A stretch of DNA of 64,000 nucleotides from Thermalbibacter longus (lineage in GTDB: Bacteria; Chloroflexota; Chloroflexia; Thermomicrobiales; Thermomicrobiaceae): the NCBI RefSeq assembly GCF_023806485.1, contig NZ_JAMSLR010000008.1, positions 1 through 64,000 on the forward strand. Reading direction: 5' to 3'. Shown here in pieces: positions 1 to 62,085 of this stretch. Each line of letters opens with the position of its first letter. Position 1 is the first letter of the stretch. The position numbers were made by a program, and so were the translations under genes. The notes under the pieces were generated by a model that was not told the DNA's origin, did no database searches, and saw nothing but the letters and a program-made list of their open reading frames with translations.

Positions 1-162
1 CACCAGGTAGAGCACGAGCGCCGTCCAGCGGCCGGGATCGCCCGAGTAGCGCGGGTGTGCGCGGTCGGGTGATGTCTCCCAGCGCCACACTTCGCGGCCG
101 CGGAACGTGAGCGGGCGGCGGCCCGTGCGCTCCAGAATAATGTCAGTGTGTTCGTATGTCAT
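1..162 (-). CDS. hypothetical element protein, 5' part only
   Basis: An ATG at 162 opens 54 codons that run off the left edge of the window without a stop. A strong Shine-Dalgarno (GGGAGGAGG) lies just upstream of the ATG on the minus strand. The protein starts MTYEHTDIILERTGRRPL and is rich in Arg and Trp. I do not recognise a family. It lies in the same direction as the two following element genes, so it probably belongs to the same operon. The gene is cut by the window edge, not visibly broken. Confidence 0.55.
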   Translation of the reverse strand, partial: MTYEHTDIILERTGRRPLTFRGREVWRWETSPDRAHPRYSGDPGRWTALVLYLV

Positions 163-188
163 CGGCCTCCTCCCTTCCGGCCATGTCT

Positions 189-238
189 GGTGAAACCCGG
201 TGAAAACCTGTGAAACCCTGTGAAACCCGGTGAAACCC
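189..238. repeat. five tandem 10-bp repeats (KGTGAAAMCC)
   Basis: Five contiguous 10-bp units occupy 189-198, 199-208, 209-218, 219-228 and 229-238: GGTGAAACCC, GGTGAAAACC, TGTGAAACCC, TGTGAAACCC and GGTGAAACCC. The 10-bp period places each copy on the same face of the helix. They lie just upstream of the partial minus-strand gene, so an iteron or multi-operator role is plausible. The function is inference. Confidence 0.8.
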
Positions 239-279
239 AGAACGTGGCGGCGACCGTGGCATAGTGACGCCCCTCTCCC

Positions 280-681
280 CTAGGTCTCGAGCCAGTCCAG
301 CAGCGTCTCCGCGTAGGCGGTGACCTGCTCTGCCGGCAGGCCAGTGCCGTGCAGCACCTCAGCGGCGGCGCGGAGGGCGCTCATGCGGAGCATGCGTCGC
401 TCCCGGTCACCAGCCGGGGCTGGTGGGATTGCCGGCGCGCTGGCTACCGGCTCGGAGGCCTCGTGCACGGCTGGTGCCTCGTGCACGGCGACGATCCGCG
501 GGTATTCGGCCGAGCCGTTGATCGAGACCACGGCTGTGGTGCCCGCCAGGAGCTGATCGACGATCTCCTTGCTCCAGGCGAAGTAGACGCCGCTGTCCGT
601 CCGGATACGCCAGTAGGCCTTGCCGTTCTGGCTCTGCCGCTGCTCCACGGCCAGGACGGTGACCGTCTGCCGCTGTGCCAT
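280..681 (-). CDS. OB-fold-like small element protein
   Basis: A 133-residue protein starting MAQRQTVTVLAVEQRQS. The ATG at 681 is preceded by GGGAGTCGGGAG, so I prefer it to longer in-frame starts. Residues about 4-66 alternate hydrophobic beta-strand-like segments (TVTVLAVE, YWRIRTDSG, AVVSING, PRIVAV) in a pattern typical of small OB-fold nucleic-acid-binding domains. An Ala/Pro/Glu linker and a C-terminal helix follow. It is co-directional with the SWIM gene upstream and the partial gene downstream. A single-strand DNA-binding role in the element is plausible but rests only on the fold pattern. Confidence 0.6.
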   Translation of the reverse strand: MAQRQTVTVLAVEQRQSQNGKAYWRIRTDSGVYFAWSKEIVDQLLAGTTAVVSINGSAEYPRIVAVHEAPAVHEASEPVASAPAIPPAPAGDRERRMLRMSALRAAAEVLHGTGLPAEQVTAYAETLLDWLET

Positions 682-777
682 CTCCCGACTCCCTTCCGTG
701 CCAGTCTCCCTGGGCCAGGCGGCCCATTCGACGCGCCGCTGGTGGAGGCCTCCACCAGGGCGCCGCTGGGGCACGGG

Positions 778-1170
778 CTAGAAGAGGTACTCGAGCAACC
801 GGCGGGCCTGCTCCTCTTCCATGAGATCGACCTCGATGCGGTGGAGGCGGGCCGGCTCCGCCTCAGGCTCCGGCTCGGCCTGGGGCTGGGGAGGCCGCTC
901 CCCAGCCGTGGCCTGCTGGCGCTCGACGTAGAGCTCGACCGCCATCGCGTGCTTGCAGACGATCCCCAGCTTGGGGCAGCGGAGCTGGCTGTCCGGGCAC
1001 GTGCACTCGCCGCTGATGTGATCGACCAGGTAGGCCTGGCCCTGGCCGTTCACGACCACGTAGCGATCCGGCTCGCCGTAGAGCGGGAAAACCTTACCGG
1101 CCTCCACCAGCTCGACCGCCTTGGCATACCGCTCGGCCACCGCCTTCGCCTGCTTCGCCGTCATCGCCAT
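778..1170 (-). CDS. SWIM zinc-finger protein
   Basis: A 130-residue protein starting MAMTAKQAKAVAERY. The ATG at 1170 has GGGAGG eight bases upstream. The centre carries a SWIM motif, CTCPDSQ followed by a cysteine-rich stretch and CKHAMAVELY, which is the CxCx(n)CxH zinc-binding arrangement. SWIM domains bind DNA or proteins and occur in transposase- and helicase-associated proteins. The C-terminus is a Pro/Glu/Gln-rich linker and an acidic helix. The gene is divergent from the XRE regulator and its promoter contains a perfect dyad, so repression by that regulator is likely. Confidence 0.7.
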   Translation of the reverse strand: MAMTAKQAKAVAERYAKAVELVEAGKVFPLYGEPDRYVVVNGQGQAYLVDHISGECTCPDSQLRCPKLGIVCKHAMAVELYVERQQATAGERPPQPQAEPEPEAEPARLHRIEVDLMEEEQARRLLEYLF

Positions 1171-1213
1171 TGTTCGCCTCCCGCCTTGCTCAAAGCTATC
1201 ATTCTCTATTACA

Positions 1214-1242
1214 AGACTAACACAACGTGAGCACGTTGTCAA
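1214..1242 (-). promoter_or_regulatory. promoter of the SWIM gene with an embedded operator dyad
   Basis: On the minus strand TTGACA (1242-1237) and TAGTCT (1219-1214) are separated by 17 bp. A dyad, ACAACGTG at 1222-1229 and CACGTTGT at 1232-1239, fills the spacer and overlaps the -35 box. That is the usual place for a repressor site, and the divergent XRE gene is the obvious candidate repressor. Confidence 0.6.
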
Positions 1243-1248
1243 GAGTTG

Positions 1249-1278
1249 TTGCATGGACTGTTGCGATCGTGCTAGGAT
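1249..1278 (+). promoter_or_regulatory. likely promoter of the XRE-integrase operon
   Basis: TTGCAT at 1249-1254 and TAGGAT at 1273-1278 are 18 bp apart, ending 22 bases before the GTG start of the XRE gene. The dyad operator of the divergent promoter lies immediately upstream. Confidence 0.45.
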
Positions 1279-1300
1279 CGTTCGGGAAGGAGGTGTACGG

Positions 1301-1558
1301 GTGAGCGTGAAGACGCTCAGGCAGTGGCGCTATGAGAAGGCGATCGGGCTCCGCGAGCTGGCGCGGCTCTCCGGCGTCTCCATTGCTACGCTTACGGCGA
1401 TCGAGCACGGCCGGAGCCGCGGCTATCCAGCTACCTGGCGGAAGATCGCCAGCACACTCGGAGTCGATCCTCTCCAGATCGCCGAGTACCGGCGCGCCGT
1501 CGGGCTCGACGCCGAGCGCGACGCGACAGAAAGCGAGGGTAGCGACCGTGAAGCCTGA
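1301..1558 (+). CDS. XRE-family helix-turn-helix regulator
   Basis: An 85-residue protein. The GTG at 1301 follows GGAAGGAGG with good spacing, so the longer upstream reading frame is not used. A Cro/C1-type HTH spans about residues 5-60: LRELARLSGVSIATLTAIEHGRS contains the two helices, followed by TWRKIASTLGVDPLQI. It shares an 11-bp overlap with the integrase start, so the two are probably translated together. It probably controls the divergent SWIM operon and the integrase through the dyad at 1222-1239. Confidence 0.85.
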   Translation: MSVKTLRQWRYEKAIGLRELARLSGVSIATLTAIEHGRSRGYPATWRKIASTLGVDPLQIAEYRRAVGLDAERDATESEGSDREA

Positions 1559-2660
1559 ACGCCGCAGTGGCTCGTACTCGACCCGCGTCTCCTACGTGGA
1601 CCCGCTCACTGGCCGCCGGCGCCAGAAGCGGGTGACGGCCAAGACCAAGCGGGAGCTCGACGTCAAGGTGGCGCAGCTCAAGGCGGCGCTCGCCAGCGGC
1701 AGCTACACCGAGCCAACCAAGATCCCGTTCGCGTCCTACCTCGAGCACTACCTAGAGACAGCCGACCTGGCGCCGCGCACCCGCGCAGCCTACGGCCTGG
1801 TGGTGCGCGCGCTCGTGGCGCCACGGCTCGGCGCGATCCCGCTCAGCAAGCTGACCGGCTGGCATGTCCAGGAGCTCTACAACGCCGTGCGGGAGACCAG
1901 CTACGCGCAGCAGGTGCAGGCGGTCGTCTCCGGCGCGCTCCGGCTGGCCGTGCGCGAGGGGCTGCTCGCGCGCAACGTCGCCGAGGGCCTGACGCCGGGG
2001 CGCCGCCAGCGGGAGCCACGAGTGCCAGCAGTCTGGACGGCTGCCGATCTCCGGGCGTTCCTCGACGCCGTCCGCGAGCACTGGCTGTTCCCGCTCTTCC
2101 GGACGGCGGCGCACACCGGCCTGCGGCTGTCCGAGCTGGCCGCGCTCCGCTGGGACGACGTGAGCCTGGACCTGGCACGGCTCTTCGTCGGCAAGTCGAA
2201 GAGCGCGGCAGGCCGGCGCCGCGTCGCGCTCGACAGCGCCACCGTCGCTGTCCTCGAGGCGCACCGTGCCGACCAGGAGCGGCGCCGAGCGGCGCTGGGG
2301 AGCGAGTGGCAGGAGCACGGCCTGGTCTTCGACCGCGGTGACGGCCGGCCGGTCTCGCCGCGCACGGTCGAGGCCACCATGGCGCGCTACGTCCGGCGCC
2401 TGGGGCTCCCGCCAGCGACGCCGCACACCTTGCGCCACACTCATGCCACGCTCTTGCTCTCGGACGGCGTGCCGCCGCACGTGGTGCAGCAGCGGCTCGG
2501 CCATGCCAGCGCGCGCACCACGCTGGACGTCTATGCGCACGTGCTGCCCGTGAGCGAGCGGGAGGCCGCCGAGCGGTTCGCTGCCAGGCTCGCTGCGAGC
2601 GAGCGTGACCAAATCGTGACCATAGCGGCCGAGCGGGGCGCGAGAGTGGCGTCAGAATAG
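1548..2660 (+). CDS. tyrosine recombinase/integrase
   Basis: A 370-residue phage-type integrase. I start it at the GTG at 1548 because it follows GCGAGGG and overlaps the XRE stop, and the upstream frame has no homology. The N-terminal 60 residues look like an arm-binding domain (SGSYSTRVSYVDPLTGRRR), followed by a SAM-like core-binding domain. The catalytic domain carries R193 (TGLRLSEL), H293 and R296 (HTLRH), H319 (LGHAS) and Y329 (DVYAH), giving the complete R-H-R-H-Y set. The gene ends 13 bp before a 28-bp dif-like dyad, and the next gene is chromosomal, so this is the outer end of the element. Confidence 0.93.
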   Translation: MKPERRSGSYSTRVSYVDPLTGRRRQKRVTAKTKRELDVKVAQLKAALASGSYTEPTKIPFASYLEHYLETADLAPRTRAAYGLVVRALVAPRLGAIPLSKLTGWHVQELYNAVRETSYAQQVQAVVSGALRLAVREGLLARNVAEGLTPGRRQREPRVPAVWTAADLRAFLDAVREHWLFPLFRTAAHTGLRLSELAALRWDDVSLDLARLFVGKSKSAAGRRRVALDSATVAVLEAHRADQERRRAALGSEWQEHGLVFDRGDGRPVSPRTVEATMARYVRRLGLPPATPHTLRHTHATLLLSDGVPPHVVQQRLGHASARTTLDVYAHVLPVSEREAAERFAARLAASERDQIVTIAAERGARVASE

Positions 2661-2673
2661 GCAGTTAGAGGAT

Positions 2674-2701
2674 CTTGCGCATAAGCGCACTTATGCGCAA
2701 G
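2674..2701. repeat. 28-bp dif-like dyad, candidate recombination site
   Basis: Two 11-bp arms, CTTGCGCATAA (2674-2684) and TTATGCGCAAG (2691-2701), flank a 6-bp centre GCGCAC. The arms are perfect inverted repeats. The 11-6-11 layout and the CATAA/TTATG inner ends match XerC/XerD dif sites. It sits directly after the integrase stop and before the first chromosomal gene. No T-tract follows, so it is a poor terminator. Confidence 0.6.
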
Positions 2702-2833: not shown

Positions 2834-3511
2834 TCAGGACTCCCTCGCGCGCCGCGTCGCGAGCGCGCGCTGGGCCTGCTGGTGCGCGCGCAGCGTCGGG
2901 TCCGGAATCCGATCGCGCGTCAAACGCAGTGTCCATGCGACAGCTTCCTCGAGCGTGATCAGGTTTCCCACCGAGACGAAGACCGGCGGTGCGCCTGTTT
3001 TGGTACGAACGACCATCCCGATCGTTTCAGTACGGTCCACGAGCGGCGCTGTCGATCCGCGTTCTCGTCCCGGTTCCGCGTATCGACCAACGAGCTTCGA
3101 CTTTGCGACGCCGATGGTTGGGATGCCGAGCATAACCCCGACATGGCACGCCAGGCCGAATCGCCTCGGGTGCGCCCTGCCCTGCCCATCAACAAAAAGA
3201 AGATTAGGTTTCGCCTCCAGGGAGTTCACGGCGTCGACGATAGCTGGAGCCTCCCGGAAAGAGAGAAAGCCCGGGATGTAGGGAAAGTCGACGTGACGCC
3301 AGAGCTCGCGCACCTCACGTACCATGAGCCCGTCTGCGTCAGTGGCTACGGCCACAGCGACTGCCTCGCCTCCAGCGATATGCACGTCCGCGCCGGCAAC
3401 GACCTGTGGTTCGTGCGTCAGCGGCCGCTCGATCACCTGGGCCGCGAGCTCGCGCTGCAGTGCGCGCAGTTGATCGAGGTCAGGTCTGCCCGGAGTCTTA
3501 CAGGCAGTCAT
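2834..3511 (-). CDS. nfi: endonuclease V (deoxyinosine 3'-endonuclease)
   Basis: A 225-residue protein, the usual length for the family. It cuts the second phosphodiester bond 3' of deoxyinosine and starts repair of deaminated adenine. Family signatures are GADVHI near the N-terminus, YIPGFLSFREAP in the centre and DGQGRAHPRRFGLACHVG, including the acidic metal ligands. The ATG at 3511 has GGGGGA about ten bases upstream; a GTG at 3532 overlapping the fmt stop is an alternative. It is the last gene of the GTPase-fmt-nfi operon. Confidence 0.93.
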   Translation of the reverse strand: MTACKTPGRPDLDQLRALQRELAAQVIERPLTHEPQVVAGADVHIAGGEAVAVAVATDADGLMVREVRELWRHVDFPYIPGFLSFREAPAIVDAVNSLEAKPNLLFVDGQGRAHPRRFGLACHVGVMLGIPTIGVAKSKLVGRYAEPGRERGSTAPLVDRTETIGMVVRTKTGAPPVFVSVGNLITLEEAVAWTLRLTRDRIPDPTLRAHQQAQRALATRRARES

Positions 3512-3531
3512 TACGACGAGATCCCCCGTCA

Positions 3532-4467
3532 CTAGGTGAAGCGCGCGTCTGGGGTCAAGCGTGCCCCACGCCACCAGTCGATTGCAGACAGCGATTTGCG
3601 TCCCTCTGGGACTACCACCTGTAGGATGACAGGCACGCTTCCTGTTCCGACGAGCAGGTGATCCCGGTCGACGTGTATTTGTCCCGGAGCCAGCATGTAA
3701 TCGTGATGGGATATGTCGAGCGATGTGACGATCAATCGCCGCCCGTCCACCATCGTCCACGCCCGAGGCCACGGCTGCATCGCCCTCACCAACCGCTCGA
3801 TCTCTTCGGCCGGCTTGCTCCAGTCGATGCGTGCGTCTTCCTTCGTCAAGGGTCTGGTATAGCTCGCCTGGGTCTCATCCTGCGGAATCGGGACAATGTC
3901 CCCTCGCGCGTACCGTTCCACCAGATCTGGTAGCGCCTGAGACGCTAGGACCGCCAGCCGCGCCAGTAGTTCACCGGCAGTCTCTCGCGGTGCGATCGGC
4001 ACACGGATCTGAGCCAGGATCGGCCCTGCATCCATCCGCGCGGTCATCTCGATGATAGTGATCCCCGTTTCCTCGTCACCGTTCAATATGGCGGCCTGCA
4101 CCGGGGACGCGCCACGATAGCGCGGTAGCAACGAAGGATGAACGTTCACCGCGCCGCGGAGCGGCAGCCGCAATATAGATTTGGGCAGGATCTCACCGTA
4201 GGCGGCTACGACGTAGATGTCCGCCACTACCTGCTCCAGCCGTTCTCGACTGCCAGGTGCGCGCAGTGACTCTGGCTGGAAGACCGGCAACCCCATCTCT
4301 TGTGCTGTCTTCTTCACCGGTGGCGACATCAGCCGCTGCCCGCGACCCGCAGGCCGATCCGGCTGCGTCACGACGAGGCTCAGCGTAAACCTGGGATCGC
4401 TCGCCAGTGACTGAAGAATCGGCACCGCAAACTCGGAAGTTCCGAAGAAGACGATCGTGATAGCCAT
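3532..4467 (-). CDS. fmt: methionyl-tRNA formyltransferase
   Basis: A 311-residue enzyme that formylates Met-tRNAfMet with 10-formyl-THF for translation initiation. The N-terminal formyltransferase fold begins ITIVFFGTSEFAVP; the catalytic Asn-His region is AVNVHPSLLPRYRGASP and the catalytic Asp region is MTARMDAGPIL. The C-terminal OB-type tRNA-binding domain follows from about residue 205 (SYTRPLTKEDARIDW). The start codon is three bases after the GTPase stop and the stop overlaps or nearly touches nfi, so the three genes form one transcription unit. Confidence 0.96.
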   Translation of the reverse strand: MAITIVFFGTSEFAVPILQSLASDPRFTLSLVVTQPDRPAGRGQRLMSPPVKKTAQEMGLPVFQPESLRAPGSRERLEQVVADIYVVAAYGEILPKSILRLPLRGAVNVHPSLLPRYRGASPVQAAILNGDEETGITIIEMTARMDAGPILAQIRVPIAPRETAGELLARLAVLASQALPDLVERYARGDIVPIPQDETQASYTRPLTKEDARIDWSKPAEEIERLVRAMQPWPRAWTMVDGRRLIVTSLDISHHDYMLAPGQIHVDRDHLLVGTGSVPVILQVVVPEGRKSLSAIDWWRGARLTPDARFT

Positions 4468-4470
4468 CGG

Positions 4471-4977
4471 CTACGCTGGCTGGCGGGTCGCTCGCCGGAC
4501 GGCGGTCGTTGCCAGAAACTCGAACGCGCTTCGCACGTTGTGTCCCGTCTTCGCCGACACCACGGCATGTGGGGCCTGTACTAGCCGGGCAAAGACGCGG
4601 CCCCAGAACAGCGGGAAGGTCGGGACCAGGTCAGCCTTGTTCCCGACGATCAACAAGCCGGCATCGGGGGCGAATTCACGGCAGCGGCGATACCACTCGA
4701 TCAGCCTCTCCAGTGTCTGAACGTTCGTCACGTCGTACACGAGCATGGCAGCCTGCGCTCCGAGGTAGAAGACTGGCCGGTTCCCACTCTGGCCCTCGAT
4801 ATCCCAGATGGCGAGCTTCACCGGCGAATCGTCGATTCGGAACTCCTGTGTCGTGATATCGATACCAAGGGTGACCTGCCGCGCCTGGCTGAACTTTCCC
4901 CGCGCGTATCGTCGAACGAGCGACGTCTTGCCGACGTTCCCCTCGCCACCGACGATAACCTTGAGCGTTTTCTGCAT
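4471..4977 (-). CDS. Rab/Ras-like small GTPase
   Basis: A 168-residue single-domain GTPase. The motifs are in order: P-loop GGEGNVGKTSL, switch I Thr in VTLGIDITT, WDIEGQ (Rab-type G3 with the catalytic Gln), NKADL (G4) and SAKTG (G5). RAEMLVYDVT-like and WYRRCREF segments are also Rab-like. Eukaryotic Rabs are prenylated at C-terminal Cys; this protein ends RRATRQPA and has no such cysteine. No MglB/roadblock partner is nearby. The role is unknown. ATG 4977 is preferred over GTG 4980 because of its spacing from GGGGG. Confidence 0.85.
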   Translation of the reverse strand: MQKTLKVIVGGEGNVGKTSLVRRYARGKFSQARQVTLGIDITTQEFRIDDSPVKLAIWDIEGQSGNRPVFYLGAQAAMLVYDVTNVQTLERLIEWYRRCREFAPDAGLLIVGNKADLVPTFPLFWGRVFARLVQAPHAVVSAKTGHNVRSAFEFLATTAVRRATRQPA

Positions 4978-5015
4978 CACTGCCCCCGGATGGTCCCGAC
5001 CTCGGGTCGAGGCTC

Positions 5016-62057: not shown

Positions 62058-62085
62058 ACGACAGCCCGCCGAAGCGGGCTGTCGT
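62058..62085. terminator. 12-bp perfect hairpin after the HNH gene
   Basis: ACGACAGCCCGC (62058-62069) and GCGGGCTGTCGT (62074-62085) with loop CGAA. It is eight bases after the HNH stop. There is no strong T-tract, so termination is likely but not certain. Confidence 0.55.

Follow-up and report, generated by a model that had tools for sequence, protein, structure and literature searches.

An integrative element in the dif site of a Thermomicrobiaceae-related genome, probably placed there by its own lambda-class integrase

An integrative element occupies dif

The left end of the window (the whole 64,000 bp stretch of DNA analysed here) very probably belongs to an integrative element, 12.9 kb or more in length, that lies in the dif site of its heat-loving host and carries its own heterobivalent (lambda-class) integrase, Int, which would recombine the element's attP with dif. 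To judge from the sequences at its ends, the element is inserted exactly in dif and leaves dif whole at one end, and its entry by way of its own integrase, rebuilding dif in the process, is the most likely course of events. A preliminary description of this DNA had suggested either an integrative element using a Xer-type site at 2674-2701 or the element's own attachment site; both turn out to apply together, in that one site is the host dif and the attR of the element. What goes beyond that description is the finding of four sister elements, of arm-type repeats that point to a lambda-type rather than a Xer enzyme, and of a match between the attachment-site centre and the dif centre of each host.

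The chromosomal dif site and its relatives

The 28-mer at 2674-2701 reads CTTGCGCATAA-GCGCAC-TTATGCGCAAG, and the 11-6-11 arrangement of inverted arms around a 6 bp centre that had been proposed for it is confirmed by the sequence, the dyad symmetry extending by one extra base on each side. The neighbouring genes are likewise as first described: the recombinase gene ends 13 bp before the site, with the last base of its stop codon at 2660, and the gene adjoining dif on the other side is nfi, encoding endonuclease V (PF04493, E 5.6e-65). The parts of the site and its chromosomal flank are as follows.

2674..2701, no strand: whole dif and attR of the element, supported by the arms, the skew switch and the adjoining nfi-fmt genes in empty relatives
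2674..2684, + strand: left arm of dif (CTTGCGCATAA), facing the element; the chromosomal left copy is at attL, C6:68081
2685..2690, + strand: 6 bp centre GCGCAC, common to attL and attR, the probable crossover region; the centre rule described below is kept in 5/5 elements
2691..2701, + strand: right dif arm TTATGCGCAAG, chromosomal
2834..4980, - strand: chromosomal flank with nfi (endonuclease V), fmt (formyltransferase) and a Ras-like GTPase, assigned by Pfam and kept beside dif in relatives

Perfect 11-6-11 dyads are not rare in these contigs, occurring also at window position 62058 and several times more in neighbouring contigs, so the argument is made from the specific arms and not from the dyad. 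The exact arms are present twice in the 3.63 Mb genome, at C78:2675 (the window site) and, with a different centre, at C8:6168, and reversed control arms have no match there. When 61 genomes of the order were searched with the arms, allowing up to 3 mismatches and using the reversed sequence as control, 41 contained such sites, frequently as two copies whose centres differ, and the control gave no match among the 61; the arms are kept across genomes and the centre varies. The dyad at 62058-62085 is G+C-rich and is probably a terminator-type hairpin.

In empty relatives belonging to different genera the site adjoins nfi, fmt and the GTPase gene, as it does in the window, and its position coincides with a switch in GC skew in three genomes. 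The skew is +0.032 to the left of the site (on contig C6) and -0.032 to the right (on the window contig, C78) in the present genome (G000), +0.021 and -0.040 on the two sides of dif in G003, and in the complete 2.74 Mb main replicon of G004 the switch falls at about 1,300-1,305 kb, with a dif-like site at 1,305,097. On the 1.25 Mb second replicon of G004, the sampled skew switch at 320-400 kb and the dif at 543.9 kb are about 150-220 kb apart. The main replicon of that genome also has a third dif-like site (C1:1627739; L039:9740), about 320 kb from the terminus dif and with no Int homologue nearby, which is possibly the dif mimic of another element. KOPS-like octamers (GGGNAGGG) were too sparse for judgement. 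Two Xer-like proteins are conserved in the family, and such proteins are present in all relatives searched. On its sequence and setting, the 28-mer is the chromosomal dif of this Thermomicrobiaceae-related genome, where Xer is predicted to act. The set as a whole provides dif sites for Thermomicrobia, for which we found no earlier report in the mainly open-access literature searched.

Element ends, extent and genes at the right end

The other end of the element was located on contig C6. At C6:68081 there is TTGCGCATAAGCGCACT, consisting of one dif arm and the centre GCGCAC, followed by element DNA up to the contig end, and before it stands the gene that in empty relatives is the left neighbour of dif. 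The preliminary description had named a second copy of the site, entire or half, at the left end as the thing to look for, and this half-dif is such a copy. The two ends thus differ in make-up, attL having one arm plus the centre and attR the full dif. With the left arm at 2674..2684 lying on the element side, we infer that this arm was supplied by the element, and in the sister element of G008 the two copies of the left dif arm differ at one base. The total of at least 12.9 kb comprises 10.2 kb on C6 and 2.7 kb in the window, the two parts being joined by synteny and by the logic of the attachment sites. The C6 and C78 contig ends have same-strand reading that could be two parts of one gene, which is suggestive only as support for the joining. 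The G+C content of the element is 0.70-0.73, against 0.65 in the flanks. Its features within the window are these.

1..2673, no strand: right-hand part of the element; the remainder, on the far side of an assembly gap, is on C6:68098-78341
280..774, - strand: element protein with a homologue in the G008 element
778..1254, - strand: SWIM zinc-finger protein of the element, with a homologue in the G008 element and a partial one in the G002 element
1301..1558, + strand: small HTH regulator overlapping the start of int (Pfam HTH_31/HTH_3), conserved with int in sister elements by tblastn
1548..2660, + strand: int, encoding a tyrosine integrase of 370 aa that has the domains Phage_int_SAM_3 and Phage_integrase and the catalytic residues R193, K218, H293, R296, H319 and Y329
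2605..2622, + strand: GTGACCA-N4-GTGACCA (2605-2611 and 2616-2622), putative arm-type sites of the integrase, located in the 3' end of int; the partner pair is at C6:68217

Between element ORFs, at 189-238, GGTGAAACCC is repeated five times in tandem with a period of 10, an array that could consist of iterons or be regulatory.

Sister elements in four other genomes

Related integrases, 52-82% identical, are encoded in four other genomes (G002, G016, G012 and G008). In all five cases, the window included, a full dif follows int at a distance of 17-46 bp, and a half-dif with the same host-specific centre is found elsewhere in the genome; more distant homologues (up to 43% identity) have a full dif after int in 0 of 21 cases. 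The half-dif centres are GCGCAC (G000), GGGTTC (G002), CAACAC (G016), CTGTCC (G012) and GGGTTC (G008), and the centre of each element's attachment site equals the dif centre of its host. The G008 element, of 10.6 kb, lies entirely on one contig, and when its flanks are joined they align without a break through the empty site of G014. Comparison of G002 with the empty G003 shows a match in the arms and the centre, and flank synteny supports the placement on both sides in G000 and most clearly on the left side in G012. The int of G016 has an in-frame TGA. At the other dif of G012 (dif1; C92, L046:8938-9285) we found a remnant of a related integrase C-terminus together with a decayed GTGACCA pair, which is a dead sister element.

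In a tree, the five integrases group together as a clade that is distinct from the two groups of host Xer proteins. Those of G002 and G016 are closest to one another although their hosts belong to different genera, which indicates transfer. Int has an extra N-terminal segment (residues 1-50), which was modelled as beta-beta-beta-alpha with pLDDT 63-79 in an AlphaFold model that was built from two sequences and is poor in its remainder; the N-terminal part had no Pfam match. No relatives of Int were found encoded on IMG/VR contigs.

Arm-type repeats and a model for integration

Paired GTGACCA repeats, 11 bp apart and in the same orientation, are present at 10 of the 10 element ends, and they lie at conserved distances: about 120 bp inward from attL, and 50-70 bp inward from attR, where they fall in the terminal part of int. 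No GTGACCA-N4-GTGACCA pair occurred in 1.07 Mb of other DNA searched. Paired arm-type sites are the pattern expected of heterobivalent (lambda-class) integrases, and by their sequence and placement the pairs look like arm-type sites of such an enzyme.

The sequence that follows the centre is TCAGACGGCC or close to it in four elements and is unlike dif, so that a second attP arm is conserved, and attP would consist of the dif-like arm TTGCGCATAA, the host 6 bp centre and the element-specific non-dif arm TCAGACGGCC or a close variant; the predicted circular attP junction is GCGCACTCAGACGG. The stretch common to attL and attR confines the crossover to about CGCATAA-N6-T. Int probably binds the paired GTGACCA arm sites near both ends together with core sites at the junction, and would catalyse the exchange between attP and dif, for which the attP centre would have to match the host dif centre. 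After integration the end next to int (attR) would have a complete dif and the opposite end (attL) a half-dif. The host would thus retain one whole dimer-resolution site, presumably a working one, and the element would have a whole dif on one flank only. By analogy with the Legionella element LME-1 described below, the half-site at attL may protect the element from loss through host Xer. A broader proposal, which we find about evenly balanced, is that the integrase of one lineage of Thermomicrobia elements has evolved, as a lambda-class enzyme, to recognise dif independently of Xer. On this proposal the centre of the attachment site matches dif centres that differ between the two replicons of the host and may select one of them, with dimer resolution preserved.

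Alternative explanations

Were the element an ordinary IMEX, host Xer would have integrated it at dif and Int would have another role, such as helping excision. A match to one dif arm and the centre, with a divergent second arm, is the layout described for TLCphi and the gonococcal island, and Xer-like host proteins are available throughout the relatives. We nevertheless consider this improbable, since int is kept in all five elements and directed at the dif end, close by it, the repeat pairs found at the two ends of each element are in keeping with an integrase that binds arm sites, four elements have a conserved second attP arm, and the tree shows that Int is not a Xer.

It is less probable still that the site is the element's own attachment site only, dif-like by descent and not a functional host dif, because element-free relatives have it at the same place, at the GC-skew switch, and it is one of about two copies per genome; a search with up to 3 mismatches found no better-placed alternative dif on this chromosome. 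We can scarcely credit the remaining explanation, that an intrinsic terminator, or an inverted repeat arisen by chance, follows int and accounts for the dyad. Some of the other perfect dyads in these contigs are indeed terminator-like, but the recurrence in 41/61 genomes is specific to the sequence and absent from the reversed control, the stem here is not followed by a T-run, the arms are conserved while the centre varies, and the empty sites in relatives contradict such an origin.

Comparison with other integrative elements

IMEX use the host XerC and XerD at dif, and islands at dif rely, according to the Islander paper, on Xer encoded outside the island. Like the IMEX TLCphi and GGI, the present element targets dif, has an att that matches one dif arm and the centre with divergence in the other arm, and keeps dif after integration; unlike them, it encodes an integrase that is not a Xer, and arm-type repeats stand at its two ends. 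As an IMEX has no integrase of its own, we do not file the element among them, though it has the dif target and the partial att match. LME-1 integrates at dif near the terminus, with one dif whole and the other end altered in a way shown to stabilise the element: the altered second dif reduced excision, and the host XerL catalyses recombination at dif (PMC9765430). The present element resembles it in the location of dif near the terminus, the one whole dif and the altered other end, and differs in that LME-1 is recombined by host XerL (PMC9765430).

In other respects, and as far as can be read from its sequence, the element would behave like a lambda-class integrative element with dif as attB. 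Lambda-class elements that restore their target, such as islands in tRNA genes, likewise have int beside attP and arm-type direct repeats, with the target restored on one side and a displaced fragment on the other (PMC4383910, PMC8138268); here the target is a dimer-resolution site and not a gene. There is also a likeness to XerT of the Helicobacter TnPZ islands, which, in the account given via PMC8138268, is an element-borne tyrosine recombinase needed for TnPZ transfer. XerT appears there as a simple Xer-type enzyme, whereas Int groups with neither of the host Xer clades and possesses the extra N-terminal segment. No element-encoded integrase at dif was found in the literature searched, mostly open-access, which is weak evidence of absence.

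Nearly all circular bacterial chromosomes have a dif, which makes it a near-universal landing site, and the elements described there in the literature consulted rely on borrowed host Xer and are therefore tied to the timing of the host. If the present reading is true, an integrase that is encoded by the element and regulated through arm sites would provide a second and independent way into dif, with directionality control of its own, and these elements would offer a direct test of whether the 6 bp centre decides which replicon is entered.

Gene content of the element

No packaging, structural or conjugation genes were recognised among the element proteins searched, which cover the assembled parts of the element except for a few small ORFs. 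The C6 part encodes an excisionase-like HTH protein, a DUF3854 primase-type protein and a family-A DNA polymerase with an exonuclease domain, in addition to zinc-ribbon-like proteins and proteins of no recognised family. An AlpA-like HTH protein is common to the sister elements, as for the most part is the int-adjacent HTH protein, and the remaining content differs. At C6:76007-76354 (L089:16008-16355), a frame that begins with ATGCCGTTGCGG is interrupted by an in-frame TAG about 73 codons on and may be a decayed gene, with a likeness to VRR-type nucleases noted by eye.
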